Assembly: GCF_963378095.1 (NCBI RefSeq)
Contig: NZ_OY726397.1
Coordinates: 4,526,001-4,590,000, forward strand
Source of the DNA: Mycolicibacterium sp. MU0053
Lineage (GTDB): Bacteria > Actinomycetota > Actinomycetes > Mycobacteriales > Mycobacteriaceae
DNA length: 64,000 bases
Direction of reading: 5' to 3'
Shown here: in pieces, positions 14,811 to 30,800 of the stretch
How positions within the stretch are numbered: position 1 is the first letter of the stretch
Layout of the letters: every line of letters starts with the position of its first letter
Notes under the pieces: generated by a model
The model's input: only the letters and a program-made list of their open reading frames with translations
Database searches by the model: none
Told to the model about the DNA's origin: nothing
Made by a program: the position numbers and the translations under genes

Positions 14811-16184
14811 GTGGCTCCCAAGCTTCCGAACGACTTGTATGCGCAGGTGGTCCTGTCCGGGCCCGGATCGTTTTTGGCCAAGCAGCTCGGGATCCCGCAG
14901 CCAGAGACCCTGCGTCGCTACCGGGTCGGCGAACCGGCGCTGGCGGGTCCGCTGCTGATCGGCGGTGACGGACGCATCGCCGAACCCATGCGCACCGCGC
15001 TCGCCGAGGACTACGAGCTGGTGGGCGACAACCTCGGCGGCCGCTGGGCCGACAAATTCGGCGGGTTGCTGTTCGACGCCACCGGCATCGGCACGCCGGC
15101 GGGACTGAAGGCGCTGCACGAGTTCTTCACCCCGCTGCTGCGGAACGTCGGGCCGTCCGGACGCGTCGTCGTGGTCGGCACCACGCCCGAGGACGCCGCC
15201 GGGCCCGACGAGCGCATCGCCCAGCGCGCCCTCGAGGGCTTCACCCGGTCGCTGGCCAAGGAGATGCAGCGCGGGGCGACGGTCTCGCTGGTCTACCTGT
15301 CGCCGGCGGCCAAACCCGCGGCCAGCGGCCTGGAGTCGACGCTGCGCTTCCTGCTCTCGGCCAAGTCCGCCTACGTCGACGGTCAGGTGTTCTACGTCGG
15401 TGCGGACGACGCGACACCGCCCGCCGACTGGGACCAGCCGCTGGCCGGCAAGGTCGCCATCGTGACCGGCGCGGCGCGCGGCATCGGCGCCACCATCGCC
15501 GAGGTGTTCGCCCGCGACGGCGCCAAGGTGGTGTGCGTCGACATGGCCGCACCCGAGGGCGCTCCCGACGCTCTCGGCGAGACCGCCGCCAAGGTCGGCG
15601 GAACCGCGCTGACACTGGATGTCACGGCCGACGATGCCGTGCAACGCATCACCGACCACCTGACCGAGCACTACGCCGGCAAGGCCGACATCCTCGTCAA
15701 CAACGCCGGCATCACCCGGGACAAGCTGCTGGCCAACATGGACGACGCCCGGTGGGACGCCGTGATCGCGGTCAATCTGCTTGCACCGCAACGGCTCACC
15801 CAGGGATTGGTGGACAACGGCACGATCGGTGACGGCGGCCGCGTGATCGGGTTGTCCTCGATGGCCGGTATCGCGGGCAACCGCGGTCAGACCAACTACG
15901 CGGCCACCAAGGCCGGCATGATCGGCCTGACCGAGGCACTGGCACCCACGTTGGCCGAAAAGAACATCACCATCAACGCCGTCGCCCCGGGCTTCATCGA
16001 GACCAAGATGACCGACGCCATGCCGTTCGCCACCCGCGAGGTGGCCCGCCGGATGAACTCGCTGTTCCAGGGCGGCCAGCCGGTCGATGTGGCCGAGGCC
16101 ATCGCATACTTCGCCAGCCCGGCCTCGAATGCGGTGACCGCCAACACGATCCGGGTCTGCGGCCAGGCCATGCTGGGAGCCTGA
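14811..16184 (+). CDS. fabG4: High-molecular-weight 3-oxoacyl reductase FabG4
   Basis: A protein of 457 aa, close to the 454 aa of Rv0242c FabG4. It reduces 3-ketoacyl thioesters to (R)-3-hydroxyacyl thioesters. The N-terminal ~210 residues form a flavodoxin-like half without a working active site. The C-terminal short-chain dehydrogenase has [10 protein letters not shown] for cofactor binding, NNAGIT, the catalytic Ser in LSSMAG and the catalytic YAATK. The start is a GTG at 14811 after a GAGAGGCGG-like ribosome site. It is followed 63 bases later by htdX, so the pair can carry out successive ketoreduction and (de)hydration steps. Probably repressed through 14751-14766. Confidence 0.94.
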
Positions 16185-16247
16185 GATGACCGACACCGCG
16201 AGTCGACAATGCGCCGCGAGGCACAAACGGCGAGGAGGAGCGAGCCA

Positions 16248-17105
16248 ATGAGCACCGATCAGCCCAGCGCCCTGATGAACATGGTGCGCGCCGCCGCCGG
16301 GGCATTACCGTTCATCCCCCGCGGCGACGACATCCCGGACCGGACGCTACGGGTGACCGACCTGGCGATCGACCGCGACAACGTCGCGGCGTATGCGGCG
16401 GTGACGGGCCTGCGCTACGGCGACACGGTGCCGTTGACCTACCCGTTCGCGCTGACCTTCCCGACCGTGATGGCGCTCATCACCGAATTCGACTTCCCCT
16501 TCGCCGCAATGGGTTCGGTGCATGTGGAGAACCACATCACCCAGCACCAACCGATCGCGGTCACTGACACCGTGTCGGTCAAGGCCCGCGCGGAGAACAT
16601 GCGCGAGCATCGCAAGGGGCTGCTGGTCGACGTGCGCACCGAGGTGAGTGTCGGCAACGAGGTGGCGTGGCAGCAGGTGACGACGTTCCTGCACCAACAA
16701 CGCACCAGCCTGTCCGACGAGCCCAAGCCGCCGCCGGTCAAGCAGCCGAAGTTGCCGCCGCCCAACTCGATCCTGCGGATCACGGCCGGCCAGATCCGTC
16801 GTTACGCCGCCGTGGCCGGCGACCACAACCCGATCCACACCAGCACGATCGGCGCCAAGCTGTTCGGCTTTCCCCGCGCGATCGCGCACGGAATGTTCAG
16901 CGCCGCCGCGGTGCTGGCCAACATCGAGGGACAGCTGCCCGACGCGGTGCGGTACTCGGTGAGGTTCGGCAAACCGATCGTCCTGCCGGCCAGCACCGGA
17001 TTGTATGTCGATCGCGTGACCGAGGGCTGGGACCTGTCACTGCGGCATCTGTCCAAGGGGTATCCGCACCTGACCGGCGAGGTCCGCGAACTCCGCGACG
17101 GCTAG
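16248..17105 (+). CDS. htdX: (R)-specific 3-hydroxyacyl-thioester dehydratase HtdX
   Basis: A protein of 285 aa (Rv0241c HtdX is 280 aa). It is a double hot-dog dehydratase/hydratase acting on 3-hydroxyacyl-CoA or -ACP. The hydratase-2 motif is visible in the C-terminal half as AGDHNPIHTS followed by AIAHGMF. The start was set at ATG 16248 because CGAGGAGGAG lies just upstream; an in-frame ATG at 16209 has no ribosome site. It sits in an operon with fabG4. Its TAG stop overlaps the stop of the opposing tetR gene within a single CTAG, and the vapBC24 genes found here in M. tuberculosis are absent. Confidence 0.92.
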   Translation: MSTDQPSALMNMVRAAAGALPFIPRGDDIPDRTLRVTDLAIDRDNVAAYAAVTGLRYGDTVPLTYPFALTFPTVMALITEFDFPFAAMGSVHVENHITQHQPIAVTDTVSVKARAENMREHRKGLLVDVRTEVSVGNEVAWQQVTTFLHQQRTSLSDEPKPPPVKQPKLPPPNSILRITAGQIRRYAAVAGDHNPIHTSTIGAKLFGFPRAIAHGMFSAAAVLANIEGQLPDAVRYSVRFGKPIVLPASTGLYVDRVTEGWDLSLRHLSKGYPHLTGEVRELRDG

Positions 17106-17713
17106 GTCGTCGTCGGCTCATTCGACGTCTTGCCCTTGAGGCCGCGCCAGAACAGGTTGATCAGCAGTTCGGCGGCGTCGTCGACATCGACGTCGCCCGA
17201 GCTGACCCGGGCGGCCACCGCCTCGCCGGCACCCACCAGCGCGATCGCCATCATGTGAAAGTCGGTGCCGGGCTCCGGATTACGCGTCCCGGTGGACAGC
17301 AGGCGCGCGACCAGATCGATGATGCGTTCGCGGCCGTCGCGCACCGTGTGGGCGAACGCCTGGGAACTGGTGGCCTGGGTGTAGAGCACGATCCAGGACG
17401 CGCGGTTGGCGTCGATGTAGGACAGGAACGTCAGGATGGTCTTGCGCAGCATGTCGCGCGGCGGCAGCGTGAAGTCGACATCGGTGCGCACGGCCTCGAT
17501 GAACCGGCTCAACTCGCGGCTCAGGCACGCCCCGAACAAGTCTTCCTTCGACCCGTAATAGAGGTAGAGCATCGGCTTGGAGATCTCGGCCTTGGCCGCG
17601 ATGGCATCCATCGAGGTCTCGTGATAGCCGTTGACGGAGAACACCTCGACCGCGGCGTCGAGCATCTGCTGCTCGCGCACGGCACGCGGCAACCGCTTGG
17701 TACCACCGGCCAT
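17102..17713 (-). CDS. TetR-family transcriptional regulator (Rv0238-like)
   Basis: A protein of 203 aa (Rv0238 is 204 aa). The N-terminal helix-turn-helix region is plain: REQQMLDAAVEVFSVNGY, then MDAIAAKAEISKPMLYLYYGSKEDLF. The rest is an all-helical ligand pocket, and ligand is probably a long-chain acyl-CoA judging from the neighbours (inference). A palindrome with the TTAC-N6-GTAA core lies 39 bases before the start, over a TAATAT -10 box (17754-17749). The same core lies at the fadA2/fabG4 and fadE5 promoters, so it is likely an autorepressor controlling the fadE5-fadA2-fabG4-htdX group. Confidence 0.9.
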   Translation of the reverse strand: MAGGTKRLPRAVREQQMLDAAVEVFSVNGYHETSMDAIAAKAEISKPMLYLYYGSKEDLFGACLSRELSRFIEAVRTDVDFTLPPRDMLRKTILTFLSYIDANRASWIVLYTQATSSQAFAHTVRDGRERIIDLVARLLSTGTRNPEPGTDFHMMAIALVGAGEAVAARVSSGDVDVDDAAELLINLFWRGLKGKTSNEPTTT

Positions 17714-17751
17714 CCGCCTACCCTTCGCCCGAACCTGTGCGGAGACTGATA

Positions 17752-17765
17752 TTACTCAGGAGTAA
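17752..17765. promoter_or_regulatory. Autoregulatory operator of the tetR gene
   Basis: TTACTCAGGAGTAA is a near-perfect palindrome with the TTAC-N6-GTAA core. It overlaps a minus-strand -10 box TAATAT (17754-17749) in the 77-base gap before the tetR start. Confidence 0.6.
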
Positions 17766-17790
17766 GCAAAGCTGCGCCCAAGGCCGCGGC

Positions 17791-19500
17791 TCAGCGTAAA
17801 CCGGCAATCTGCGCCACGGTCAGCGAAGCGGTAAGTCGCAGTAGATCCCGCGGTTTGGCCAGCCGCAATCCGGTCAGCTCCTCGAGTCGGCGGGTCCGTT
17901 GTTGCACGGTGTTCGGGTGCAGATGCAGTGCTGCGGCAGCGGCCCGGCGATCCAAATCATGCTCGAGCAGGACACGGGCGGTATGTACCAGTTCAGTCGA
18001 CCGCTCGCGGTCGTAATCGAGGGCGGGCCCCAACACTGAACGCGCAAATGCGCGCAGTCCCTCCGGGTCATCGAGTTGCAGCAACAAATGGTCGATGGCG
18101 ATCTCCTGCAGGTCGATGACCGCGGGGGAAGGACCGTCGGCGGCCAACTCCAGCGCGCCACGCAGCGTCCGAAAAACCCCGGACAGGTCCTGGACGGCAG
18201 CGGGCGGTGCCACGGCTGACAGTGCGCGCTCGACCACCTCCTCGGCGGTCAGTAGATCGACCAGCCGGGCGGCAACCTCGGTGATCTCGCCGTCGACTCC
18301 TGGGCCCCGCGCGTCTCGGGCCCACACCAAGACCAAGTCACCACGATGGACCGCGGTCAGCGGACGGGGAGATACCCCCGCCACAAACCGATCGACGGCA
18401 GACAACAACCGTTCGGTCATCGGTCGGCTGCCGGGCTTGTCGCGTTCGACGCAGCGCACCGCGAGCAACACCTGCTCACCGGACAGATCCCAGCCGAGGC
18501 GACGTGCCCGACCCAACAGGGCGGCGATGTCGGCGCCGTCCGAATTGAGCAACTCGGCGACCAGCGACCCGCGCAGCCGCTGTTCCACCTCGGCAGCTGT
18601 ACGGGCCCGCAGCAGTTCGAGCGCCGTGACGACTGCGGCGTGCTCAATCGCGCGCATGTCGAGCCGGGTGAGCGCCGCGGGCAGATCCTGGACATGGATT
18701 CGTGCCACGACGTCGCCGTCGAGCACGACCGGGGACCAGCTGTGCTCTCCCCCGCTGGTGTCCTCGGTGAGCCAGCCCGCGCGCGCCAAGGTCTCGTCGT
18801 ACACGTCCTCGATCCACACCGGGCGGTCCAGCAATTCGGCCAGCGCGGCAGCCACACCCTCGACCCCCTCGCCGCGTAGTGCGGTCGCGGTGAGCAGCGT
18901 ATGTATCTCCTCCGCTCGGCGCAGTTCCCGAATGGTGTCCTGCTCACGGGCACGCAACTGGGCGGTACCCAAGGCGATCGCCACCTGGGTCGCCAATGTG
19001 GTCACCATGCTGATCTCGGCGGCATCGAACCGGTGCGGGCGGGCGTGATAGCCGTTGAGCGCGCCGACGACGGTGCTGCCGCGGCGCAACGGCACCGACA
19101 CCAACGCGCGGTAGCCCTGCTCGTCTGCCACCCCACCCCACGCGAAGCCCGGATGGAGCTCGATGTCCTCCAACACCACCGCCTCGCCGGTGCGGAAGGC
19201 AATGCTCGTCGGTGCTTCGTCGGCGCCTCGAACGTCGAGCAGGATCGGCCGACTGGCGTTGACTTCGGCAATGTAGTCGGTCAACAAGCCATGAGAGCCG
19301 ACGATAGCGAGCGCCTGCCCACTTTCGTCGGGCAAGAATACGCCGCAGAAGTCGTACCCGAGCAATGTGCAGGCGGTGCGCGCCACCCGTCCCAACAGGT
19401 CCGTGACAGGCTCGTCGCCACCGACAGCCTCCCCGATGGTCGCGAGGGCATCGAGCCAGCGTTCCAGCGGCACACCGGAACGTGATGTTGGGACAGACAT
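17791..19500 (-). CDS. GAF-domain PucR/CdaR-type transcriptional regulator
   Basis: About 569 aa from the ATG at 19500 (MSVPTSRSG); an in-frame ATG also lies at 19512 and neither has a strong ribosome site. From the chosen start, residues ~15-190 form a GAF ligand-sensing domain, and the middle is CdaR-like. The last ~60 residues carry a PucR-type helix-turn-helix (ALHLHPNTVQQRTRRLEEL). Such proteins usually activate catabolic genes in response to a small effector. It is transcribed divergently from the transporter/enzyme cluster at 19612-25755, with inverted repeats between, so it is most likely the cluster's regulator. The effector is unknown. M. tuberculosis has no equivalent at this position. 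Confidence 0.85.
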   Translation of the reverse strand: MSVPTSRSGVPLERWLDALATIGEAVGGDEPVTDLLGRVARTACTLLGYDFCGVFLPDESGQALAIVGSHGLLTDYIAEVNASRPILLDVRGADEAPTSIAFRTGEAVVLEDIELHPGFAWGGVADEQGYRALVSVPLRRGSTVVGALNGYHARPHRFDAAEISMVTTLATQVAIALGTAQLRAREQDTIRELRRAEEIHTLLTATALRGEGVEGVAAALAELLDRPVWIEDVYDETLARAGWLTEDTSGGEHSWSPVVLDGDVVARIHVQDLPAALTRLDMRAIEHAAVVTALELLRARTAAEVEQRLRGSLVAELLNSDGADIAALLGRARRLGWDLSGEQVLLAVRCVERDKPGSRPMTERLLSAVDRFVAGVSPRPLTAVHRGDLVLVWARDARGPGVDGEITEVAARLVDLLTAEEVVERALSAVAPPAAVQDLSGVFRTLRGALELAADGPSPAVIDLQEIAIDHLLLQLDDPEGLRAFARSVLGPALDYDRERSTELVHTARVLLEHDLDRRAAAAALHLHPNTVQQRTRRLEELTGLRLAKPRDLLRLTASLTVAQIAGLR

Positions 19501-19545
19501 AGGTTGAAGCATAAGTGTGTTCAGCAGGACATTGCCGCGGCCTGC

Positions 19546-19586
19546 GCGCATCACGCATGGTGATGCGCAGCGGTGACAGTCGTCAC
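19546..19586. promoter_or_regulatory. Inverted repeats in the divergent promoter of the catabolic island
   Basis: A perfect 9-bp inverted repeat, GCGCATCAC / GTGATGCGC (19546-19554 and 19560-19568, 5-base gap), is followed by GTGAC-N4-GTCAC (19573-19586). They lie between the regulator start (19500) and the lipoprotein start (19612), where a regulator binding site is expected. The second repeat overlaps a GTG that could be taken as a longer start for the lipoprotein, arguing against that start. Confidence 0.55.
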
Positions 19587-19611
19587 AAGCGGGGATCAAG
19601 GAGGTTTTCCG

Positions 19612-20670
19612 TTGCGCAATCCAGCACGATCGCGAATGTTTCGATCGGCGATCGCCCTAGCGGCCGTGGCCGTGATGGCCGTGACGACGGCGTGCTCCGC
19701 AGGACTAGGTGGACCGGCATCCTCGCGTGCTGCCCAAGAAGGCGTCATCCGCTTCACCTTCGCCCCAGACCCGATCTGGGACTACATGAACGAAACCGGC
19801 ATCGTCGAGGAGTGGCAGCACTCCACCGGCTACACCATCGAATCCAGCGCCACCTGGGACGAGTTCGGTCTGTTCGCCGGCGGGCACGCCGACATCATCT
19901 CGACGGCCTCTTTCGAAGTGCCTTACCTCGAGGAGCAGACCCAGCGCGAGACCGTGATCATCGGACGCTACAACGCCGAACGTAGCCGAATCCTGGTGCG
20001 CACCGACGACCCAGCGCAGTCAGTGGCGGATCTCCGCGGGAAACGCTTCGGGGTGTTCACCACGGTGTCGGGCACCCTGGTCTGGAGCGCCTTGCTCAAG
20101 CACATGCACGATCTCAACCTCATCGGCAACGGCAGCGACTTCCGAGTCGTGGTGGCTGACATCCAGAACTTGTCGAACCTGCTTGCCCGCGGTGAGATCG
20201 ATGCTTGCATCTGCTACCCCGACCTGTCGGCTCGGGAACTCCGGCAGGGCACGGTGCGGGCGCTCTACGACGGCAGGTCCTCGGCTGACCTGTTCGGCGA
20301 ACTCATTGCCCCAGGACATGACGGGCCTATGGGCAACGTCTTCGTGGCCCGCCGCGATTGGGTCGAGGAGCATCCGCGCGAGGTATCCGCTTTCCTCGAC
20401 CTGTGGACCAGGGGGCTCTCCGAATGGCGGGGACACCGCGAAGAAATGATCGAACACTACCCACAGCACTTCGCGGTAGAGAATCCCGAAGACATCACCT
20501 TCATGAAGGAATATGTGGCCGAACACGATTGGGTCGTCGACGACGTGCGGTTCGACGAAGAGTGGGCAACCGACGAGAGCTCGATCTTCGAACTGATGCG
20601 GGAAACCGGCGTCATCGGCGATGACGTGGCGGACCCTCGCTTTCTGCCGACCGAGGGAGTCAAGCCGTGA
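19612..20670 (+). CDS. ABC transporter substrate-binding lipoprotein (SsuA/NMT1-like)
   Basis: 352 aa from a TTG start at 19612, chosen because AAGGAGG (19598-19604) ends seven bases upstream. A longer GTG start at 19573 would lie inside an inverted repeat. The N-terminus is a lipoprotein signal: Arg-rich n-region, hydrophobic AIALAAVAVMAV, then a lipobox-like TTAC-Ser. The mature part resembles the NMT1/SsuA group of binding proteins that feed SsuBC-type transporters with sulfonates, thiamine precursors or aromatic acids. It is the first gene of a tight operon with two permeases and an ATPase. The ligand is unknown; the downstream hydroxylase and amidohydrolase point to an aromatic or heteroaromatic acid. 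Confidence 0.85.
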   Translation: MRNPARSRMFRSAIALAAVAVMAVTTACSAGLGGPASSRAAQEGVIRFTFAPDPIWDYMNETGIVEEWQHSTGYTIESSATWDEFGLFAGGHADIISTASFEVPYLEEQTQRETVIIGRYNAERSRILVRTDDPAQSVADLRGKRFGVFTTVSGTLVWSALLKHMHDLNLIGNGSDFRVVVADIQNLSNLLARGEIDACICYPDLSARELRQGTVRALYDGRSSADLFGELIAPGHDGPMGNVFVARRDWVEEHPREVSAFLDLWTRGLSEWRGHREEMIEHYPQHFAVENPEDITFMKEYVAEHDWVVDDVRFDEEWATDESSIFELMRETGVIGDDVADPRFLPTEGVKP

Positions 20671-21509
20671 CCCAGACTGTCGCACTACCGAGCACCGCGC
20701 CCGGACCCCGCGACCCTGCGCAGCCACCCCGCTGGCGGCGGAACCCAGGACGGCCCACCGGCCCGCGGCGGTGGTTGATCTCTGGCAGTGCGCTGGTGCT
20801 GGCGATCGCGGCCTGGATGGCAATCGCCGCCTGGGTGGACGATCCCATCCTGCCCAAGCCCGTCGATGTGCTGGAGCGGACCGTCGCCATCATCGCCTCC
20901 GGTGAGGCGTTGACGAACTTCGCCTCGAGCATCGGCAAGATCGCGGCCGGATTCGCAATCGCGATGATCGCCGGTCTGATCATCGGCTTCGCAATGGGTC
21001 GTAGCCGGTTCATGACGTCCTACTTCTCGCTGCCGCTGTTCGTCCTCGGCAATATGCCGGGCCTGACCTATGCGGTGTTCGGCCTGTTGATATTCGGCAT
21101 CGGCCCGGGCGGTCCGATCGTGGTCTCGGCCCTGGTGGCCACCCCATTCATCGCGATCAACGTCGCCGAGGGGGTGCGCTCGGTCGACGGGAACCTGTTG
21201 GCGATGTGCCACGCGTTCGAGCGCAACCGCGTCGACATTCTGCGTCACCTGTACTTGCCTGCCGTGGCCACCTTTGTCTTCGCCGGCGTGCGTTACGGCT
21301 TCGCGATGGCCTGGAAAGTGGAGGCCCTCACCGAGGTGTTCGGCGCCAGCGACGGTGTCGGATTCATGATCCGCAAGGCCTATCAAGAGTTCCAGGTCGA
21401 CGACATGCTTGCCTGGACAGCACTTTTCGTCATCGTCATGATTCTGATGGAGCGTGGTCTGGCGTACCTCGAAACCCGTTTGTTCGCCTGGCGGAAGGAC
21501 CTCGGATGA
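20667..21509 (+). CDS. ABC transporter permease (SsuC-like), first copy
   Basis: A protein of 280 aa. It has a cytoplasmic N-terminal tail rich in Pro and Arg, then about six hydrophobic segments of the BPD_transp_1 fold, starting at WLISGSALVLAIAAWMAIAA. An EAA-like coupling loop is visible around MCHAFERNRVDILRHLYLP. The GTG start overlaps the TGA of the lipoprotein gene (GTGA), indicating translational coupling. Together with the next permease it should form a heterodimeric channel. Confidence 0.88.
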   Translation: MTQTVALPSTAPGPRDPAQPPRWRRNPGRPTGPRRWLISGSALVLAIAAWMAIAAWVDDPILPKPVDVLERTVAIIASGEALTNFASSIGKIAAGFAIAMIAGLIIGFAMGRSRFMTSYFSLPLFVLGNMPGLTYAVFGLLIFGIGPGGPIVVSALVATPFIAINVAEGVRSVDGNLLAMCHAFERNRVDILRHLYLPAVATFVFAGVRYGFAMAWKVEALTEVFGASDGVGFMIRKAYQEFQVDDMLAWTALFVIVMILMERGLAYLETRLFAWRKDLG

Positions 21510-22306
21510 GTACCACCACCACCCCGATCACCCAGCTGCAATCCTGGCGGTATCAGCTGCGCGGTCACGGTTCTGGAGCGCTCGCCGTCGCCGCGTCCGT
21601 GTTGACCATCCTGGCCGTTTGGCAACTGGCAGTGGTGGTGGGCAACCGGATTCCCTCGCCGGCCGACACCGTCGACAGCCTGGCAAGCGAGGCCGCCGCG
21701 GGACAACTCTGGGCCAACCTGGCCGTCTCGGCCAACCGATTCGCGCTCGGCCTGGCTGCCGCGCTTCTGGTCGGGGCGGTGCTGGGCGTCCTGATGGGGC
21801 TGTCCAAGATCGCCGACCTGGCGCTGTCCGACCTCAACGCAGCCGCGTTGGCGATCCCAGCCGTCATCTGGGCGCTGCTGACCACGATGTGGTTCGGCTT
21901 CGGTTGGCTGACACCGGTGGTGACGGTGTTTCTGGCGGGTCTGCCATTCGTCATCGTCAACATCGCCAAGGCCACCCGGGCGGTGCCGGCCGACCTGGTT
22001 CTGATGGCACGGTCCTTCGGAGTCTCCCGCGCAGATGTGCTGCGGCACATCGTCGCACCCGCGGTCGCCGGATCCACCGTGGCCGCCGTGCGGTTCGCCA
22101 TCATGAGCGCCTGGAACGGACTGCTGCTGGCCGAGTGGTTCGGATCGACGTCGGGGGTGGGTTGGCGGTCCAGATACTGGTATGACGCTAACCAACTCGA
22201 TGGCTTCTTCGCCTGGGTGCTGGTTTTCATCCTGGTACTGATCATCGCCGATCTGGTGATCCTCGGTCCGATCGAGCGCTACGCCACGCGCTGGCGTTCG
22301 GCCTGA
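21506..22306 (+). CDS. ABC transporter permease (SsuC-like), second copy
   Basis: 266 aa from ATG 21506, which overlaps the preceding TGA (ATGA). A longer open frame upstream is only the shadow of the first permease. It has about six membrane segments and an EAA-like loop (ARSFGVSRADVLRHIVAP). It is related to but clearly diverged from the first permease. Two different permeases suggest a heterodimeric membrane part, unlike the classical homodimeric SsuC. Confidence 0.88.
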   Translation: MSTTTTPITQLQSWRYQLRGHGSGALAVAASVLTILAVWQLAVVVGNRIPSPADTVDSLASEAAAGQLWANLAVSANRFALGLAAALLVGAVLGVLMGLSKIADLALSDLNAAALAIPAVIWALLTTMWFGFGWLTPVVTVFLAGLPFVIVNIAKATRAVPADLVLMARSFGVSRADVLRHIVAPAVAGSTVAAVRFAIMSAWNGLLLAEWFGSTSGVGWRSRYWYDANQLDGFFAWVLVFILVLIIADLVILGPIERYATRWRSA

Positions 22307-22339
22307 AACCCCTCTGACACAACGAGAGCGAGTACAACT

Positions 22340-23080
22340 ATGGCATCTATCGAAATCCGGAACCTGGTCAAGGAATTCACCGACCGCCGAGGCAATGCCA
22401 CCCGCGTCCTCGACGGGATAGACCTGACCATCACCGGCGAGACCTTCGTATCGGTCGTGGGCCCCTCTGGCAGCGGGAAGACGACGCTGCTCAACATCGT
22501 CTCGGGCATCGAAACCCTCACCTCCGGTGATGTTCGGCTGCGGTCGGGCGACCGCGACGCCCGGGTCGGGTACGTGTTCCAGGACGCCCGCCTGCTGCCG
22601 TGGCGCACCGTGATGGCCAATCTCAGCTTCGTGCAACGTGACCGGACCGACTGGCACCGCCGCGCGAGCCATTACCTCGACCTGGTTGGCCTCGCCGAGT
22701 ACGCCGATCGCTACCCGGCGCAACTGTCCGGCGGGCAGCAGCAGCGCATCGGAATCGCCCGAGCGTTCTCCGTCGAACCAGACATTTTGTTGATGGATGA
22801 GCCTTTCTCGCACCTGGACGCGATGACATCGCGGGCGTTGCGGGAGCATTTGGAGCGGATCTGGCTGGAGTCCCGTCGCACCGTCATGTTTGTGACACAC
22901 GACGTAACCGAGGCCGTCCAACTCTCCGACCGCATCGTGGTGCTTGCACCGGGCGGACGGGTGCACGAGATCATCGACGTGGACCTGCCCCGCCCGCGAC
23001 GGGCCTCGGATCCGGCGGTGGCGATGCTGCAAGCCGACGTGCTGGCCCGCTTCGAAGCTCTCGAGGCGGCGGCAGCGTGA
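22340..23080 (+). CDS. ABC transporter ATP-binding protein (SsuB-like)
   Basis: A protein of 246 aa with all nucleotide-binding motifs: Walker A GPSGSGKTT, Q-loop in GYVFQDARLLPW, signature LSGGQQQRIGIARA, Walker B ILLMDEPFSHLD and the H-loop VTHDVTEA. It energises the importer formed by the two preceding permeases. It starts 33 bases after the second permease and overlaps the following amidohydrolase gene by GTGA. The codons at its beginning are less GC-biased than in surrounding core genes. Confidence 0.92.
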   Translation: MASIEIRNLVKEFTDRRGNATRVLDGIDLTITGETFVSVVGPSGSGKTTLLNIVSGIETLTSGDVRLRSGDRDARVGYVFQDARLLPWRTVMANLSFVQRDRTDWHRRASHYLDLVGLAEYADRYPAQLSGGQQQRIGIARAFSVEPDILLMDEPFSHLDAMTSRALREHLERIWLESRRTVMFVTHDVTEAVQLSDRIVVLAPGGRVHEIIDVDLPRPRRASDPAVAMLQADVLARFEALEAAAA

Positions 23081-24075
23081 ATACCGTTGTGCCCGTGCAA
23101 CCGGGCCCCATCGATGTCCATGCGCACTGGCTGCCCGAAGAACTCTTCGGCCTGCCTCCTGGTTCGCCGCTGCCGGCCCTGAACGGACGTGACGGCGAAC
23201 TGCACCTCGGCGACCTGCCGTTGTCCATCGACACCGAGGCGATGTGTGACGCGGACCTGGTGCTGGCCGATACCGAAGCGGCGGGCTTGGGCTCGCGGGT
23301 GCTGTCGGCACCGCCGTTCGCCTTCCCCGTCGTAGCCGCCGCCGGGGTCGGCGAGTACGTCGGTCGCTTCAACGATGCACTCACGCGGGCGTGCCGAGAC
23401 AGTGCCGGCAGGTTGTTGGGCCTGGGCCTGGTGTCTCTGCACGATCCAGATGCCGCCCGCGCAGAGATGGCAGCCCTGTCGAAAACCGGTGTGGTACGCG
23501 GCATCACCGTGCCGCCGCTGCTGGGATCTGAGTCGTTCGATGCCGGCCCGCTGCGGGAGGTCATCGAACTTGCCGCTGCCGCCGATCTTGCCGTGCAGGT
23601 GCATCCGATGCAGCTGCCGCGGCCGGAGTGGGAGTCCTACTACCTGGCCAACCTGATCGGCAACCCAGTCGAGACGGCAACCGCCGCCGCATCGTTGATT
23701 CTCGGCGGTGTACTGGACCGACTGCCCGGTCTTCGCATCTGCCTACTGCATGGCGGCGGCTGCGCACCGGCGCTGCTCGGGCGTTGGCGACATGGCTGGG
23801 AGCAACGCGCAGACGTCCGCAGCAACACGAGCCAACCTCCGACCGCCGCGTTCGGCTCGCTGTGGTTCGACACCCTGACTCACGACGGACCCACCCTCGA
23901 ACTCCTTCGGGCCCAGGCGAACCCGGAACGGTTGATGTGTGGCAGCGACTACCCGTTCGATATGGGCGTCGCGCTGCCGTTGGCCCTGCCGCGCAGCGTC
24001 GGGCTCACCGATGACGAGCTCGAGGCCAACGCACGACGATTCCTGAATCTTGACCAAGGAGAGAAGCATGCCTGA
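23077..24075 (+). CDS. ACMSD-type amidohydrolase (probable metal-dependent decarboxylase or hydrolase)
   Basis: 332 aa from a GTG start overlapping the ATPase stop. The Amidohydrolase_2 fold is indicated by metal and active-site motifs in order: HAH in IDVHAHWLP, His in VQVHPMQ, His in LLHGGGCAP and Asp in MCGSDYPF. These are the residues used by the ACMSD / gamma-resorcylate decarboxylase group, which removes carboxylates from aromatic rings; related members hydrate or hydrolyse ring-cleavage products. Its place between an importer and a ring hydroxylase suggests decarboxylation of an imported aromatic acid, but a role after ring cleavage is equally possible. Confidence 0.85.
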   Translation: MNTVVPVQPGPIDVHAHWLPEELFGLPPGSPLPALNGRDGELHLGDLPLSIDTEAMCDADLVLADTEAAGLGSRVLSAPPFAFPVVAAAGVGEYVGRFNDALTRACRDSAGRLLGLGLVSLHDPDAARAEMAALSKTGVVRGITVPPLLGSESFDAGPLREVIELAAAADLAVQVHPMQLPRPEWESYYLANLIGNPVETATAAASLILGGVLDRLPGLRICLLHGGGCAPALLGRWRHGWEQRADVRSNTSQPPTAAFGSLWFDTLTHDGPTLELLRAQANPERLMCGSDYPFDMGVALPLALPRSVGLTDDELEANARRFLNLDQGEKHA

Positions 24076-25288
24076 GATCAACGGCGGGCTCGGTGCGTCG
24101 CGCGATTGGTCAGGTCGGCGGGCTTTGGTCATCGGCGGGTCGTTCGGCGGTTTGACCGCCGCGCTGCTGCTGCGTCGGCTCGGCTTCGATGTCTCGGTGT
24201 TCGAGCGCACTCCAGATAACCTCGACAGCCGAGGTGGTGGCATCGTGCTGCAACCCGACACGCTGCGCTGGTTCACCGAGTGCAGCACCCAGCATCCCCA
24301 GCAGGTCAGCACCTCCACCCACTACGTGCAGTACCTCGACCGTTCCAACGGGATCATCCACCGCGACCCCACCCCTTGGAGTTACACCTCGTGGGGCACG
24401 TTCTATCGGGCATTGCTCGCCGATTTCGGCACCGACGACTATCACCTAGGGCAATACGCGGCCGGATTCGATCAGGACGCGGACGGCGTCGAGGTGCGGT
24501 TCGCCTCCGGTCGTCGTGAACGCGGCGACCTGGTGGTGTTCGCCGACGGAATCGGCTCCCCGAGCCGCCGACGCATTTCCCCGGGAGCCGAACTCGAATA
24601 CTCCGGTTACATCGGCTGGCGGGGCACGGTTCCCGAAAGCGAGATGTCCCCGGAGGCATTTGAGCTCTTGCACGATTCGATCACCTACAGCGTGGCGCCC
24701 CATACCCACATCAACGTGTATCCGATTCCGTCGCCCGATGGTGGTTTGGTCGCCGGCGAACGACTGCTGAACTACGTCTGGTACCGCAACGTGCCGGAGG
24801 GCCACGAACTCGACGAACTGATGACCGACAAGCGCGGCTTCGTCGCCAAGGTATCGCTACACCCGGGTGCTGTGCAGGGTCGGTTCATCGACGAAATGCG
24901 CGTGGCCGCAGGCCAATTGCTGGCTCCGGCCGCGGCTGAGGTGGTCCAGCGCACCGAGCAGCCGTACCTGCAGGCGGTGTACGACGCCGGGGTCGACCGG
25001 ATGGCGCTGGGCCGGGTCGCCCTGATCGGGGACGCCGCCAGCGCCGCCCGGCCACACGCGGCGGCGGGCACCGCGAAGGCCGCGGCCAACGCGTGGGCGC
25101 TGTACGACGCGCTCGCGCGGGCCGACGACATCACCGAAGCGCTGCAGAAATGGGAGCCCGGCCAGCTCGAACTGGGCAAACGATTGCTGCGCCGGGTCAA
25201 GGAGATGGGCACCCGTTCCCAGGTCGACTGCACCTGGACCCCGGGCGACCCCGATCTGCGCTTCGGTCTGCACGGCCCGGGCCGCTGA
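24068..25288 (+). CDS. FAD-dependent aromatic hydroxylase, 2,6-dihydroxypyridine 3-monooxygenase-like
   Basis: 406 aa from ATG 24068; AAGGAG lies six bases upstream, whereas an earlier TTG at 24050 has none. Class A flavoprotein hydroxylase motifs: ADP-binding VIGGSFGGLTAALLL, DG motif VVFADGIGS and GD motif ALIGDAASAARPHAAAG. The stretches NVPEGHELDELMTD and RPHAAAG..KA look to me closest to 2,6-dihydroxypyridine 3-hydroxylase of nicotine-degrading Paenarthrobacter. It would insert one oxygen next to a ring hydroxyl using NAD(P)H. The real substrate could be another hydroxylated N-heterocycle or a phenol. It overlaps the amidohydrolase gene by eight bases and is followed by a cupin gene. Confidence 0.85.
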   Translation: MPEINGGLGASRDWSGRRALVIGGSFGGLTAALLLRRLGFDVSVFERTPDNLDSRGGGIVLQPDTLRWFTECSTQHPQQVSTSTHYVQYLDRSNGIIHRDPTPWSYTSWGTFYRALLADFGTDDYHLGQYAAGFDQDADGVEVRFASGRRERGDLVVFADGIGSPSRRRISPGAELEYSGYIGWRGTVPESEMSPEAFELLHDSITYSVAPHTHINVYPIPSPDGGLVAGERLLNYVWYRNVPEGHELDELMTDKRGFVAKVSLHPGAVQGRFIDEMRVAAGQLLAPAAAEVVQRTEQPYLQAVYDAGVDRMALGRVALIGDAASAARPHAAAGTAKAAANAWALYDALARADDITEALQKWEPGQLELGKRLLRRVKEMGTRSQVDCTWTPGDPDLRFGLHGPGR

Positions 25289-25320
25289 CACCGTTGGAAC
25301 CGAGACGACTGGAGAAGATG

Positions 25321-25755
25321 ATGACGAATGTTCAACCGCACCTGACGGACGCGCCGCTGGCCGGCACCCGCGTGGGCACGGACTACAACGGTTGGTCTCC
25401 CGAACTGCGCGCCGAATTCGAAACCTACGCGTACGACGGACATGTGGGCTCCCGCCTGCTGTCCGCGAACGACCGGGTCCGGGTCTGGGAGATCCGGCTG
25501 GGCCCGGGCGAGCGGTTCCACGCCCACCGGCATGTGCTCGACTACTTCTGGACCGCCGTGAACGCCGGGCGCAGCCGACAACACACTGCGGACGGCACCA
25601 CCCGAGAGGTCGCCTACGAGGCCGGCGAAACCCGACATTTCACCTTCGGTGCGGGCGAGTTCCTGCTGCACGACATCGAGAACGTCGGGACTCAGGAACT
25701 CGTGTTCACCACCGTCGAGCACCTCGACTCGGCGAACCCACCGCTACCGCTTTGA
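25321..25755 (+). CDS. Small cupin-fold protein (BauB-like)
   Basis: 144 aa from ATG 25321, six bases after GGAG; an adjacent ATG at 25318 is too close to it. A single cupin barrel is indicated by GERFHAHRH (metal-binding His cluster) and FLLHDIENVG (third His). Similar proteins are called BauB-like and have no settled reaction. It is the last gene of the catabolic run, 32 bases after the hydroxylase, and could be a metal-dependent oxygenase, isomerase or binding protein acting on the hydroxylated product. It converges on lpqI with 12 bases between stops. Confidence 0.8.
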   Translation: MTNVQPHLTDAPLAGTRVGTDYNGWSPELRAEFETYAYDGHVGSRLLSANDRVRVWEIRLGPGERFHAHRHVLDYFWTAVNAGRSRQHTADGTTREVAYEAGETRHFTFGAGEFLLHDIENVGTQELVFTTVEHLDSANPPLPL

Positions 25756-25767
25756 GGCGTGCCGCCA

Positions 25768-26952
25768 CTAGCAGCGAGCGGGCCCCTTGATCCCCGCGAC
25801 CCGGTGCAGCGACGCCTCGACCGCCGGCAGCTGCAGTTCGCCGGCGGCCACCGCCGCTTCGAGGCGATCCAGGACCGCCGGCACCTCGCCGGTGCTCACC
25901 CACAGCGCGACGTCGACCCCGGCCTGCAGGCTGCGCAGCACCGCCTCCGGGACCCCGAAGCGCTGGTTGATGGCCCCCATCGAGGACAGGTCGTCGCTGA
26001 AGACCGGACCGTTGAAGCTCGGTCCGCCGTACGCGCCGTTGCGCAACAGCGCGACCGCGGCGCCGCTGAGGCTGGCCGGGTCAGCGCCGGTCAGGCCCGG
26101 GACCTGCATGTGGCCCATCATCACCCCGACCGGGCCCTGTGTGGTCAGCGTGCGGTACGGCACCAGATCGGTGGCCTTGAGTTCTTCCAGTGGCGGGGTG
26201 ACCACGCCGCTGACATGCGAGTCGCCGGAGGCGTTGCCGTGGCCGGGGAAGTGCTTGAGGACCGGCAGCACGCCGCCGTCGCGCAGGCCGCGGGCATAGG
26301 CACCCGCGTACTCGGTGACGACCGCCGGATCGGACCCGAAGGACCGGTCGCCGATCACGGTGTTGTCGGCGGCGTCGGTCACGTCCACCACGGGTGCGAA
26401 GTCGACGGTGATGCCATGGCCGCGCATCTTGCGGCCGCGCTCCAACGCGATCTGATAGACCTCGTCGGGGGTCTTGGTGTCGGCCAGCACCCGCGGCGAG
26501 GGTTGGCTGCCGATCAGCGCGGACAGCCGTTGCACGCGCCCGCCCTCTTCGTCCACGCTGACCGCCAGCGGCAACGGTTGCGCATTGGCCGCGATCTCGG
26601 CGAGCGTGCCGTCGGTGAGCATCGACCGGTCCGTCCAGCTGCCGATGAAGATGCCGCCGACGCGGTGGTCGGCGACCACGGCCCGGGCGTCGGCCCCGCT
26701 GGTGACCCCGACCATCAGCAGTTGTGCCAGCTTGTCGCGGGTCGACAGCGTCGACAGGTCGCCGCAGATCGCCGGCGCCTGCGGAATCGGGTTGCTCAGC
26801 GGCACCGAGGCCGGCGACGACTGCGCCTGGGCCCCGGGTGCCGCCGCGGGCTCCGCGGCGGGCTGCTGGGTTGCCGGTGCGCACGCCATCAGCAAAGCCG
26901 GGAGCGTGGCCACCGAGACGACTGCGCGGGTGAGCGTCGAGGAGAAAGCCAT
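25768..26952 (-). CDS. lpqI: LpqI: lipoprotein glycoside hydrolase family 3 (NagZ-like)
   Basis: A protein of 394 aa (Rv0237 LpqI is 388 aa). A lipoprotein signal ends in PALLMAC with Cys as lipidation site, followed by a Pro/Ala/Gln-rich linker. The family 3 catalytic domain has the NagZ signature KHFPGHGNASGDSH with its acid/base His, and the nucleophile Asp in FSDDLSSMG. It is expected to remove N-acetylglucosamine from peptidoglycan fragments at the outer face of the membrane. It diverges from a universal stress protein gene. The tetR-lpqI spacing found in M. tuberculosis is here interrupted by the catabolic island. Confidence 0.93.
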   Translation of the reverse strand: MAFSSTLTRAVVSVATLPALLMACAPATQQPAAEPAAAPGAQAQSSPASVPLSNPIPQAPAICGDLSTLSTRDKLAQLLMVGVTSGADARAVVADHRVGGIFIGSWTDRSMLTDGTLAEIAANAQPLPLAVSVDEEGGRVQRLSALIGSQPSPRVLADTKTPDEVYQIALERGRKMRGHGITVDFAPVVDVTDAADNTVIGDRSFGSDPAVVTEYAGAYARGLRDGGVLPVLKHFPGHGNASGDSHVSGVVTPPLEELKATDLVPYRTLTTQGPVGVMMGHMQVPGLTGADPASLSGAAVALLRNGAYGGPSFNGPVFSDDLSSMGAINQRFGVPEAVLRSLQAGVDVALWVSTGEVPAVLDRLEAAVAAGELQLPAVEASLHRVAGIKGPARC

Positions 26953-27126
26953 ACCTCATGCTTTCATGTGATCTGCGTCCAGTCAGCGTCCGGTTGCTGT
27001 TCGCCGATCGGTTAGGGTGCGGAAACGGCTCGGAAGCGCGCGACACGCCGTTTTATTCTTGGGCGTCCAGCCGATGAATTTCGCAGTCCTGACCGGAGCC
27101 GCGCCGCCAGAAGGGGATCATGGGGC

Positions 27127-27588
27127 ATGTCTGTCGTACTGATCGCCTACGACGGAACCTCCAATGCGCGCCGGGCCGTCAACTATGCGGGGCGCTTCCT
27201 GAGCGCCAAGCGCGTGGTGGTGCTGACGGTGTGGGCGCCGATCCGCTCGGGCCCCGACCCGATCAGCGTCGATCTCGACGGCCCGCCCGATCCGGTCGAT
27301 GATCCCGATGACGAACACGACATCGCCTACGCCGACGCGCTGCGCACCAACGCCGAGGGCACCGAACTCGCGGCCGCGGCCGGGCTCAACGCGGAACCGA
27401 TGTGCGTGCCCGTCCAGGGCACCGTGTGGCGGGCGATCATCGACGCCGCCGACCGCATCGACGCCGACCTGGTGGTCTCCGGGACGCGCGGCACCACCGG
27501 ATTGCGTTCGTTGCTGCAGTCCAGCGTCGCCGACCATGTGCTGCGGCACGGCCGGCGCCCGGTGCTCATCGTGCCCCCGGGACACTGA
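27127..27588 (+). CDS. Universal stress protein family, single domain
   Basis: A protein of 153 aa with one Usp domain. It begins SVVLIAYDGTSNARRAV, with the first-strand Asp, and ends with the ATP-binding pattern G-2x-G-9x-G-(S/T)-like SGTRGTTGLRSLLQSS...RPVLIVPPG. Such proteins bind ATP and act in persistence or stress responses. The ATG at 27127 follows an AAGGGG-like site. It lies between lpqI and the small Rv0236A-like gene; I do not recall a Usp gene at this place in M. tuberculosis. Confidence 0.88.
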   Translation: MSVVLIAYDGTSNARRAVNYAGRFLSAKRVVVLTVWAPIRSGPDPISVDLDGPPDPVDDPDDEHDIAYADALRTNAEGTELAAAAGLNAEPMCVPVQGTVWRAIIDAADRIDADLVVSGTRGTTGLRSLLQSSVADHVLRHGRRPVLIVPPGH

Positions 27589-27646
27589 TCCCGTCGTGCT
27601 AGGTTGGCGGACGAACAAAACCGATCCATCACGCTGAGGAGCCCCC

Positions 27647-27820
27647 ATGACCCGGTTCGTGGTGCCTGCCGCCGCCAGCATTGTGGTCGGTCTGCTTCTC
27701 GGCGCAGCGGCCGTGTTCGGGGTCTCCCTGATGGTTCAGCAGGACACCAAGCCGCCGCTGACCGCGGGCGACCCGGGGTCGTCGGTGCTCAACCGCGTCG
27801 AATACGGCGACCGCAGCTGA
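27647..27820 (+). CDS. 57-aa membrane-anchored or secreted small protein (Rv0236A-like)
   Basis: Translates as a 57-residue protein. A short N-terminus (MTRFVVPAAA) leads into a single hydrophobic helix (SIVVGLLLGAAAVFGVSLMV), followed by a polar tail ending in NRVEYGDRS. GAGGAG lies six bases before the ATG. Length and position immediately before aftD match the M. tuberculosis small protein Rv0236A. The tail is probably exported; it may be a small partner of AftD or of the envelope machinery (inference from linkage only). Confidence 0.82.
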   Translation: MTRFVVPAAASIVVGLLLGAAAVFGVSLMVQQDTKPPLTAGDPGSSVLNRVEYGDRS

Positions 27821-27866
27821 CCTGAGCGCCTCACCGGTAGCGACCCGTCCGGGAGGGTCGATCGCC

Positions 27867-30800
27867 GTGCCGCACACCAGCACCTTCGAGCCGCTGTCCC
27901 GCCGCTGGTTATGGGTCGCTGGTCTGATCGCGCTGCTGCTGACGCTCGCGCAGTCGCCCGGACAGATCGCGCCGGACACCAAACTCGACCTCACCGCCAA
28001 TCCGTTGCGGTTCCTCAGCCGCGCCGCCGACCTGTGGAACAGCGACCTCCCGTTCGGGCAGGCGCAGAACCAGGCCTACGGCTACCTGTTCCCGCACGGG
28101 GCCTTCTTCCTGGCCGGCGATCTGTTGGGCGTGCCGAGCTGGATGATCCAGCGACTGTGGTGGGCGATCCTGCTGACCGCCGGATTCTGGGGCATCCTGC
28201 GGGTCGCCGAGGCGCTCGGCATCGGCACCACCTCCTCGCGGGTACTGGCCGGTGTCGCGTTCGCGCTGTCCCCGCGGGTGCTCAGCACCCTGGGTTCGAT
28301 CTCCTCGGAAACCCTGCCGATGATGCTCGCCCCGTGGGTGCTGCTGCCGGTCATCCTCGCGATGCGCGGCGGACACGGGCACTCGCTGCGCATCCTGGCC
28401 GCGCGCTCGGCCGTCGCGGTCGCGCTGATGGGCGCGGTGAACGCCGTCGCCACGCTGACGGCGTGCCTGCCCGCGTTGCTCTGGTGGGCCTGTCACCGGC
28501 CCAACCGGCAGTGGCTGCGGTTCAGTGGGTGGTGGCTGCTGGCCACCGCGCTGGCGGTGACCTGGTGGGTGGTGGCGCTGGCCTCATTGGGCCGGATCAG
28601 TCCGCCGTTCCTGGACTACATCGAATCCTCCGGGGTCACCACGCAGTGGACCTCGCTGATCGAGGTGCTGCGCGGCACCGACAGCTGGACGCCGTTCGTG
28701 GCGCCCAACGCGACCGCCGGCAGCTCGCTGGTCACCGGTCCGTTGGCAATTCTGGCCACCACGCTGGTGGCCGCGGCCGGGGTGGCCGGTCTGGCGCTGC
28801 GCACGATGCCGGCGCGCGGGCGCCTGGTGACCATGCTGCTGGTCGGGGTCACGCTGCTGGCGGTCGGCTATTCCGGTGGCCTGGGCTCGCCGGTGGCCGG
28901 CTATGTGCAGGCGTTTCTGGACGCCGAGGGCGCCCCGCTGCGCAATGTCCACAAGCTCGAGCCGCTGGTGCGGATCCCGATCGTGCTCGGCATCGCCCAT
29001 CTCCTGGGCCGCATCCCGCTGCCGGGCAGCGCGCCCCGGCCGACGTGGCTGCGCGCCTACACCCATCCCGAGGACGACAAGCGCGTCGCGGTCGGGATCG
29101 TGGTGCTCGCTGCACTCACCGCCGCCACGTCGCTGGCCTGGACCGCGCGCCTGACCCCGCCCGGGTCGTTCTCGGCGATCCCGGACTACTGGCACGAGGC
29201 CGCGGGCTGGCTCACCGAACACAACACCGGTGCGCCGACGCCGGGCCGGGCGCTGGTGGTCCCGGGCGCCCCGTTTGCGACGCAGATCTGGGGCAACAGC
29301 CGCGATGAGCCGCTGCAGGTACTCGGCGAAAGCCCCTGGGGAGTACGCGATTCCATTCCGCTGACCCCGCCACAGGCCATCCGCGCGCTGGATTCGGTGC
29401 AGCGGCTGTTGGCCGCGGGCCGGCCCTCGACGGGCCTGGCCGACACCCTGGCCCGCCAGGGGGTGTCCCATCTGGTGCTGCGCAACGACCTGGATCCGGA
29501 GCACTCCCGCTCGGCCCGCCCGATCCTGGTGCACCGCGCCATCGAGGGGTCACCGGGCCTGACGAAGGTCGCCGAATTCGGCGATCCGGTGGGACCGGGA
29601 ACGCTGGAGGGATTCATCACCGACAGCGGTCTGCGCCCCCGCTACCCCGCGGTCGAGATCTTCCGGGTCGAACCCGCCCACACCGGCGTCGAGAACCCCG
29701 GCGCGCCCTACCTCGCCGACACCGCCGACCTGGCGCGCATCGACGGCGGTCCCGAGGTGCTGCTGCGTCTCGACGAACGCCGCCGGTCCGCCGGCGACTC
29801 CCCCTTGGGGCCGGTGCTGCTCACCCAGGACGCGCGCGCCGCGGGCCTGCCGACCGAGTTGGTCACCGTCACCGACACCCCGGTGGCCCGCGAAACCGAC
29901 TACGGCCGGGTCGACGACCATTCCTCGGCGGCGCGCGCCGAGGGCGATGAACGACATACCCACAACCGGGTGCCAGACTATCCGAGCCCCGGCGCGCAAC
30001 CGCGCCACGGCGCGTGGACCGGCGGCCGGATCACCACCTCGAGTTCGGCCGCGGACGCCACGGCGCTGCCGCATGTCGCGCCGGCCGCCGGTGCGGCCGC
30101 GGCGATCGACGGCGACTCGGCCACCAGTTGGGTGTCCAATTCGTTGCAGGCCGCGGTCGGCCAGTGGTTGCAGATCGACTTCGACCACCCCGTGACCAAC
30201 GCGACCATGACGATGACCCCCAGCGCCTCGACCATCGGCGTCCAGGTCAGCCGGATCGAGATCGCCACCGCGGGCGGCACCACGACGCTGCGGGTCGACG
30301 AACCCGGTCAGCCGGTGACCGTGGCGCTGCCCTACGGCGAGACACCGTGGGTGCGGATCAGCGCCGCGGCCACCGAGGACAACTCCGGGGGCGTGCAGTT
30401 CGGCATCACCGACCTGGTTGTCAACCAGTACGACGCCGCCGGATTCGCGCATCAGGTCGACCTGCGACACACGATGGAAGTGCCCGGCCCGCCGCCGGAT
30501 GCGGCGGTGGCCCGCTGGGATCTCGGTTCGGAGTTCCTGGGCCGGTCCGGATGCATCGCCGGCGTCGAGGCCGTGCACTGCGCCTCGGCGCTGGCGCTGG
30601 CACCCGAAGAGCTGGTCAACCTGAGCCGCACCCTGACTGTCCCGCAGCCGATTTCGGTCACACCGGCGATCTGGGTCCGGCCCCGGCAGGGCCCGGCGCT
30701 GGCCGAGCTGGTGCGGGAGCCCGAAACCACCCGCGCCGACGGCGATTCCGACTCCTTCGACGTACTCGGCACGGCCTTCGCCGCCACCGATGGCGACCCC

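Follow-up and report, generated by a model that had tools for sequence, protein, structure and literature searches.

Introduction

The enzyme 2,6-dihydroxypyridine 3-hydroxylase (DHPH) turns 2,6-dihydroxypyridine into 2,3,6-trihydroxypyridine, and in the 3-hydroxyanthranilate route a cupin, 3-hydroxyanthranilate dioxygenase, acts before the decarboxylase ACMSD. ACMSD-type decarboxylases of the Amidohydro_2 family hold their metal through an H-x-H motif, two further histidines and an aspartate, and ACMSD binds its substrate with two arginines, Arg47 and Arg235. PicC, annotated as an amidohydrolase family protein, decarboxylates a dihydroxypyridine acid according to the accessible part of its report (PMC10142695); similarly, the accessible part of the work on the hxn nicotinate pathway of Aspergillus nidulans assigns the old yellow enzyme (OYE) HxnT to 2,3,6-trihydroxypyridine (PMC9304392). 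Here we describe an eight-gene block at about 17766–25756 of a 64,000-nucleotide stretch of Mycolicibacterium sp. MU0053 (positions 4,526,001 to 4,590,000 of contig NZ_OY726397.1; hereafter the window)—a PucR regulator, a divergent lipoprotein, two permeases, an ATPase, an ACMSD-type Amidohydro_2 enzyme (AMH), a DHPH-family flavin monooxygenase (FMO) and a small cupin. We put forward the tentative reading, somewhat short of probable, that the block is a mobile catabolic unit in which an imported hydroxylated (hetero)aromatic acid would be decarboxylated and hydroxylated and its ring opened or rearranged.

Results

Conserved linkage and layouts

All eight genes named in a preliminary description of the window are present, separated by short gaps or overlapping, and the likely starts of the regulator and the lipoprotein lie inside the longest open reading frames. 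The same eight genes were found in identical order in 27 loci read, mostly mycobacterial and also from Actinomadura and Nocardioides; L094 (a short contig) is not among them, and with four loci that had been read twice counted once they amount to 23 distinct loci other than the window (L numbers denote compared loci, G numbers compared genomes and G000 the window's own genome). As 23 distinct other loci keep the full set of eight in one order, the linkage of these genes is far beyond chance. Together with the gene families, this linkage supports the self-contained import-and-degrade unit of the preliminary description, which had named missing linkage in other genomes as a reason to give the idea up. 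The 27 loci include those from genus and order searches; in the genome scan for AMH loci, of which the best 80 of 140 were taken, 17 of the 25 loci with an AMH of at least 66% (L077–L099, L101 and L103) carried all eight genes, and the other eight comprised four with importer and AMH (one of them with PucR), three with AMH alone and one short contig. Open reading frames of the compared loci came from a simple G+C-position script, which set some frames wrongly, and gene calls were based on tblastn.

A second layout, PucR–aldehyde dehydrogenase (ALDH)–major facilitator superfamily (MFS) transporter–FMO–cupin–AMH, was observed in 13 loci of mycobacteria, Rhodococcus plasmids and other actinobacteria (L100, whose contig is cut within FMO, left out of the count), and OYE is also present in 11 of them. 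AMH lies between cupin and OYE in 10 of these 13 complete clusters and beyond PucR in L072. Two symporters of this layout were scanned, and both scored best with an aromatic acid/H+ symport model, below its cut-off. Furthermore, seven proteobacterial plasmids bear cluster variants: three, from Bosea, Agrobacterium and Rhizobium, show AMH–ALDH–ABC transporter–FMO–cupin with OYE within the stretch read, and four burkholderial plasmids (L201–L204) show VOC–FMO, with AMH in three and OYE in two within the stretch read. No cupin match was found in the stretches read of these four burkholderial loci; the VOC protein stands ahead of FMO there, possibly as a replacement of the cupin by an unrelated metal enzyme. 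The spread is patchy, AMH being found at 1e-50 in 13 of 397 genomes of the order and the cupin at 1e-20 in 13 of 394 genomes of the class.

AMH, FMO and cupin as one pathway

The census of 297 genus genomes (match threshold 1e-60) revealed FMO in 70 and AMH in 56, with both in 54 against 13.2 expected (Fisher p 3.9e-42, kinship not corrected). Seven genomes tested carry an AMH locus without FMO and cupin (L080, L084, L085, L088, L089, L093 and L098; the short contig L094 left out), and all seven bear an ALDH–MFS–FMO–cupin–OYE cluster elsewhere, which includes PucR in six. No AMH was found within the 19.9 kb read around the split clusters of these seven genomes, and five of them (G035, G042, G137, G152 and G154) have one AMH match each. 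These directly computed patterns—gene families, conserved linkage, and co-occurrence of AMH and FMO across the genus, joined by the cupin in the seven split genomes—bear on a shared function: since 54 of 56 AMH genomes bear FMO and the split genomes keep FMO and cupin elsewhere, the three enzymes most likely serve one pathway. FMO occurs without AMH in 16 genomes, at identities of 41–44% in eight, 57–61% in three and 70–75% in five; the last are paralogues, four of which were seen without other cluster genes.

Second copies were also observed. A second AMH-like gene (44–46%) stands elsewhere in G014, G052, G082, G192 and G245, beside an AMH of 68–75%, and a second FMO of the same subfamily (68–87% to the L247 copy) adjoins the regulator or lies close by in L247–L251, L034 and L079.

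Insertion site and base composition

The gene lpqI was found at E 1e-60 or better in 12 of 20 relatives searched, and tetR directly adjoins it in 11 of these 12 genomes, the remaining one (L186) having its tetR match 1.3 kb off; this confirms that the block is an insertion between tetR and lpqI, as first suspected. Comparison with the empty site of G012 (L182), whose tetR is 97% identical, places the approximate borders of the insert at 17766 and 25756. No target-site duplication was seen at these borders, and of the repeats found, a single short direct one and three inverted pairs, none frames the block. The island is less G+C-rich, as had been remarked, both overall (0.660 vs 0.700 for the remaining window) and at third positions (0.77–0.84 in its genes vs 0.90–0.92 in five flanking genes), yet 8 of 225 same-size windows, which may overlap the island, are equally low.

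Another mycobacterial site, flanked on one side by an LLM oxidoreductase/nitroreductase-like stretch and on the other by a HIT gene (named by the look of their sequences), contains the full cluster in L033 and L040 (two eight-gene loci with listed open reading frames), importer and AMH in L088 and L089, AMH alone in L080 and a lone FMO paralogue in L045; in L074 and L082 the neighbouring sequence looks unlike this. As this site is occupied in relatives and empty in the window's genome (L221, G000:C1:1258000-1270000), the block moved or was acquired separately.

The flavin monooxygenase

FMO (24068–25288, forward strand) scored 475 bits with NF005566/PRK07236 (cut-off 333) and 115 bits with PF22607 (cut-off 27), and its nearest solved structure is DHPH (2vou, E 3.9e-77), and it shares 38% of its residues with the pAO1 enzyme. 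A midpoint-rooted tree of 84 rows, none of them a 6-hydroxynicotinate (NicC) or salicylate monooxygenase, groups DHPH with the actinobacterial FMOs (100/98; 66 of the rows), a join that the program flags as a meeting of long branches. By its profile scores FMO is a member of the DHPH family, in agreement with the preliminary description. Assignments as salicylate hydroxylase (45 bits vs a cut-off of 446), urate hydroxylase HpxO (98 vs 500) or an MHPCO-type enzyme (structure match 2e-12 vs 3.9e-77) were rejected.

MHPCO is the known ring-opening oxygenase of a vitamin B6-like route, in which a pyridine aldehyde would be oxidised to the acid, decarboxylated and opened. Aldehyde-oxidising enzymes are linked to related clusters, and a low-confidence model places the binding protein in the class that holds Thi5; with MHPCO so much weaker a match than DHPH, we consider this route highly improbable.

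The cupin

The small cupin (25321–25755, forward strand; H69, H71 and H117) scores below the Pfam Cupin_2 gathering score (13.4 vs 27.2 bits), and its predicted fold is clearly that of a cupin, a double-stranded beta-helix with an HxH motif and a third histidine that is nearly invariant, not invariant, in alignment A4. AzcA (9u8n, 9u8o), a triazine-forming cupin, is its top match in both fold and sequence, with a fold match above those of other cupins. The entry title of AzcA names a triazine-2-carb... product, and no work on AzcA biosynthesis was among the papers that searches of the open literature listed. A relation to the pAO1 nicotine cupin was discarded, with no match to the block cupin at E 1e-3.

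Were the cupin to work like AzcA, the substrate might be an oxidised purine, a triazine or a similar nitrogen-rich ring. PucR-type regulators are named after purine catabolism, and one Methylobacterium plasmid (L171:3307-15159) has uraD, uraH, a nucleobase symporter and a molybdenum hydroxylase of the xanthine dehydrogenase type close to its cupin and FMO. The block cupin, however, is about 30% identical to AzcA, other layouts bear aromatic-acid-type transporters, and no FMO or AMH match was found within 14 kb of the closer AzcA relatives (43–44%; two loci of one actinomycete genus), so that we judge such a substrate very unlikely. Cupin relatives were also observed on Roseobacter plasmids (L174–L176), near alkene reductase, TRAP or RidA genes and with no FMO match in the stretch.

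The amidohydrolase

AMH (23077–24075, forward strand), the presumed decarboxylase, matches PF04909 at 90.5 bits and carries the H-x-H, His, His, Asp set of ACMSD-type decarboxylases as H15, H17, H176, H225 and D291. Among solved structures it is closest to ACMSD chains (E ~1e-29), uracil-5-carboxylate decarboxylase scoring 2e-13. In the alignment the ACMSD Arg235 position is kept as Arg236, whereas that of Arg47 of the human enzyme is Ser50, and AMH thus has one of the two arginines expected of an ACMSD enzyme.

Linked enzymes and the substrate class

The related layouts bring in two enzymes that the preliminary scheme had not foreseen, ALDH and a molybdenum enzyme of the aldehyde-oxidase type. 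The latter is linked in 8 of 20 second-layout loci, the seven split clusters counted in, and in 2 of the 27 eight-gene loci, two more having weaker matches (38–46%); it lies near the cluster in L035, L078, L048, L071, L247–L251 and L253, directly after the cupin in the first two. The window cluster has neither ALDH nor OYE, and the best matches in the window's genome to a linked ALDH and a linked OYE are 56% and 36%, respectively. Because the L247 copy of the molybdenum enzyme is nearest aldehyde oxidases (5y6q, PaoC) over quinoline or 6-hydroxypseudooxynicotine hydroxylases, we dropped this enzyme as support for an N-heterocycle.

The same affinity would suit a carbocyclic substrate—dihydroxybenzoate or another phenolic acid arising from an aldehyde—from which FMO would make a trihydroxybenzene for the cupin to cleave, as would the ALDH and aromatic-acid-type symporter of the second layout. 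FMO, however, is nearest DHPH and far below the salicylate model, and the eight window genes include neither an intradiol dioxygenase nor a maleylacetate reductase; a carbocyclic substrate is possible, though we lean against it. As a substrate class, a dihydroxypyridine carboxylate is only slightly favoured over a dihydroxybenzoate. DHPH as the nearest solved relative would fit the hydroxypyridine first suggested and makes it reasonable; that part of the suggestion stays unproven, given that an identity of 38% does not carry the substrate with it and that a carbocyclic acid is possible.

Two further linked proteins were set aside. In L050, FMO and cupin have a C-C hydrolase-like neighbour, a weak relative of the nicotine-pathway hydrolase (1.2e-16, behind another hydrolase at 1.8e-21). 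At a contig end in a Nocardioides eight-gene locus, a PF04199-type cyclase (L091:14224-14829) shares 54% identity with the pAO1 cyclase across 176 residues; it was not counted because some 7 kb and a different transporter set separate it from the cluster.

Regulator, candidate operator and importer

The GAF and PucR-type regulator (17791–19500, reverse strand) matches PF13185, PF01590, PF17853 and PF13556 above cut-offs; its longest open reading frame extends to 19599, a start near 19500 being likelier from the N-terminus of the homologue in L040. The substrate-binding lipoprotein (19612–20670, forward strand) most likely starts with the TTG at 19612, with AAGGAGG ahead, and PF09084 (40.4 bits vs a cut-off of 20.5) places it among NMT1/SsuA-like binding proteins. 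It falls under the cut-off of the SsuA model (51.6 vs 163.5 bits), which sets it apart from the aliphatic sulfonate importer SsuABC; its predicted structure (pLDDT 66) resembles SsuA, PqqT and Thi5, and no ligand is deducible from a model of this confidence. Two permeases (20667–21509 and 21506–22306; both PF00528) and an ATPase (22340–23080; PF00005) follow on the forward strand. The palindrome GTGACAGTCGTCAC (19573–19586), between regulator and lipoprotein, is a candidate operator, and its parts GTGA and GTCACA are kept at no less than 90% in 29 aligned upstream regions, a set that takes in the window and the four duplicate loci. No RNA families were found at 16000–28000, and no tRNA within the window.

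Discussion

From these families and their linkage we infer the substrate class, the regulation, the three reactions and their direction. The PucR-type regulator would control the binding-protein-dependent importer, which would take up a (hetero)aromatic carboxylic acid that already bears hydroxyl; AMH, as a metal-dependent ACMSD-type decarboxylase, would remove the carboxyl group, the DHPH-family FMO would add a hydroxyl beside one already there, and the three-histidine cupin may then open or rearrange the electron-rich ring. Importer and AMH stand together in four loci with FMO and cupin not beside them, and FMO and cupin occur with no nearby AMH in L050, L163 (3.4 kb only) and L171, both of which favour AMH acting first. 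The former argument is weak because FMO and cupin sit elsewhere in those genomes. PicC offers a precedent for an amidohydrolase-family decarboxylation of a dihydroxypyridine acid (PMC10142695).

Besides that weakness, several observations weigh against this scheme. AMH has a serine at the Arg47 position of ACMSD; the linked ALDH and, in several loci, the molybdenum enzyme would find a use in the scheme only at a side entry or further down the pathway; and ALDH adjoins AMH in plasmid loci. Two genomes (G055 and G207) have AMH without FMO, and the FMOs of 57–61% in G132, G243 and G276, which stand without AMH, are not obviously of another kind. DHPH sits on a long branch in the tree, and FMOs of types C and D, from the alphaproteobacterial and burkholderial plasmids and with similar partners, fall outside the DHPH group. 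In two small-cupin precedents, the 3-hydroxyanthranilate route and, by its entry title, AzcA, the carboxylate is retained after the cupin step. Finally, we know of no activity on record for any member.

Some of these points would suit the reverse order: hydroxylation of the imported acid by FMO, opening or rearrangement of its ring by the cupin, and decarboxylation of the product by AMH in the manner of ACMSD after 3-hydroxyanthranilate dioxygenase, with ALDH then oxidising a semialdehyde. No solved structure is closer to AMH than ACMSD, and in three alphaproteobacterial plasmid loci AMH adjoins ALDH, overlapping it in two; semialdehyde dehydrogenase models give the linked ALDH high scores, below their cut-offs; and AzcA, to judge by its entry title, seems to yield a ring carboxylate. 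The missing counterpart of Arg47, the window cluster without ALDH and, weakly, the four importer-and-AMH loci argue for the opposite, and we hold the reverse order to be unlikely. The sequence of decarboxylase, hydroxylase and cupin given in the preliminary description is favoured in our scheme as an inferred order, with the linked ALDH and the reverse alternative counting against it.

No description of the eight-gene set was among the papers that searches of the open literature listed, consistent with the initial impression, and the unit, mobile and conserved, consists of known families in a combination for which those papers gave no description. The proposal that it represents an undescribed pathway common to Actinomycetota and Pseudomonadota comes close to probable; here a DHPH-family monooxygenase and an AzcA-type cupin, fed by an ACMSD-type decarboxylase, would open or rearrange an electron-rich (hetero)aromatic ring, the genes being passed on as exchangeable modules with different importers. 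Degradative ring chemistry would be seemingly without precedent among AzcA-type cupins, which may thereby be extended from ring making to ring breaking. As the unit is compact, is found in mycobacteria, other actinobacteria and proteobacterial plasmids, and brings importer and regulator along, a single screen for growth or enzyme activity could link a substrate to many genes at present annotated as 'amidohydrolase', 'FAD-dependent monooxygenase' or 'hypothetical protein'.

Among known systems, the pAO1 nicotine cluster shares an FMO of the same subfamily, matched over its full length and grouped with that of the block at 100/98; where pAO1 has a C-C hydrolase, a PF04199 cyclase, an SRPBCC protein and a C-N hydrolase, the block has AMH and a different cupin, and the island genes belong to families other than those of a pAO1-type nicotine cluster, in which dihydropseudooxynicotine hydrolase, the cyclase and the C-N hydrolase accompany DHPH. 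AzcA differs in that the block cupin is about 40 residues longer at the N-terminus, and purine-type genes are absent from the window cluster. In the accessible parts of the respective reports, the kpi cluster of Arthrobacter sp. IN13, an actinobacterium degrading 4-hydroxypyridine, resembles the block in that a ring opener and hydrolases come after an FMO, and differs in that KpiC belongs to Pfam01979 rather than PF04909, its Table 1 lists no cupin and its transporter is of another family (PMC7356986); the hxn pathway resembles the second layout in its OYE, HxnT, and differs in being fungal, in the other FMO type (HxnV) and in naming no such cupin or decarboxylase, the window cluster in turn having no OYE (PMC9304392). 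ACMSD shares with AMH the Amidohydro_2 family and the metal-binding set, but not the residue at its Arg47, and PicC, compared by the accessible part of its description only, resembles AMH as an amidohydrolase-family decarboxylase for a dihydroxypyridine acid (PMC10142695).

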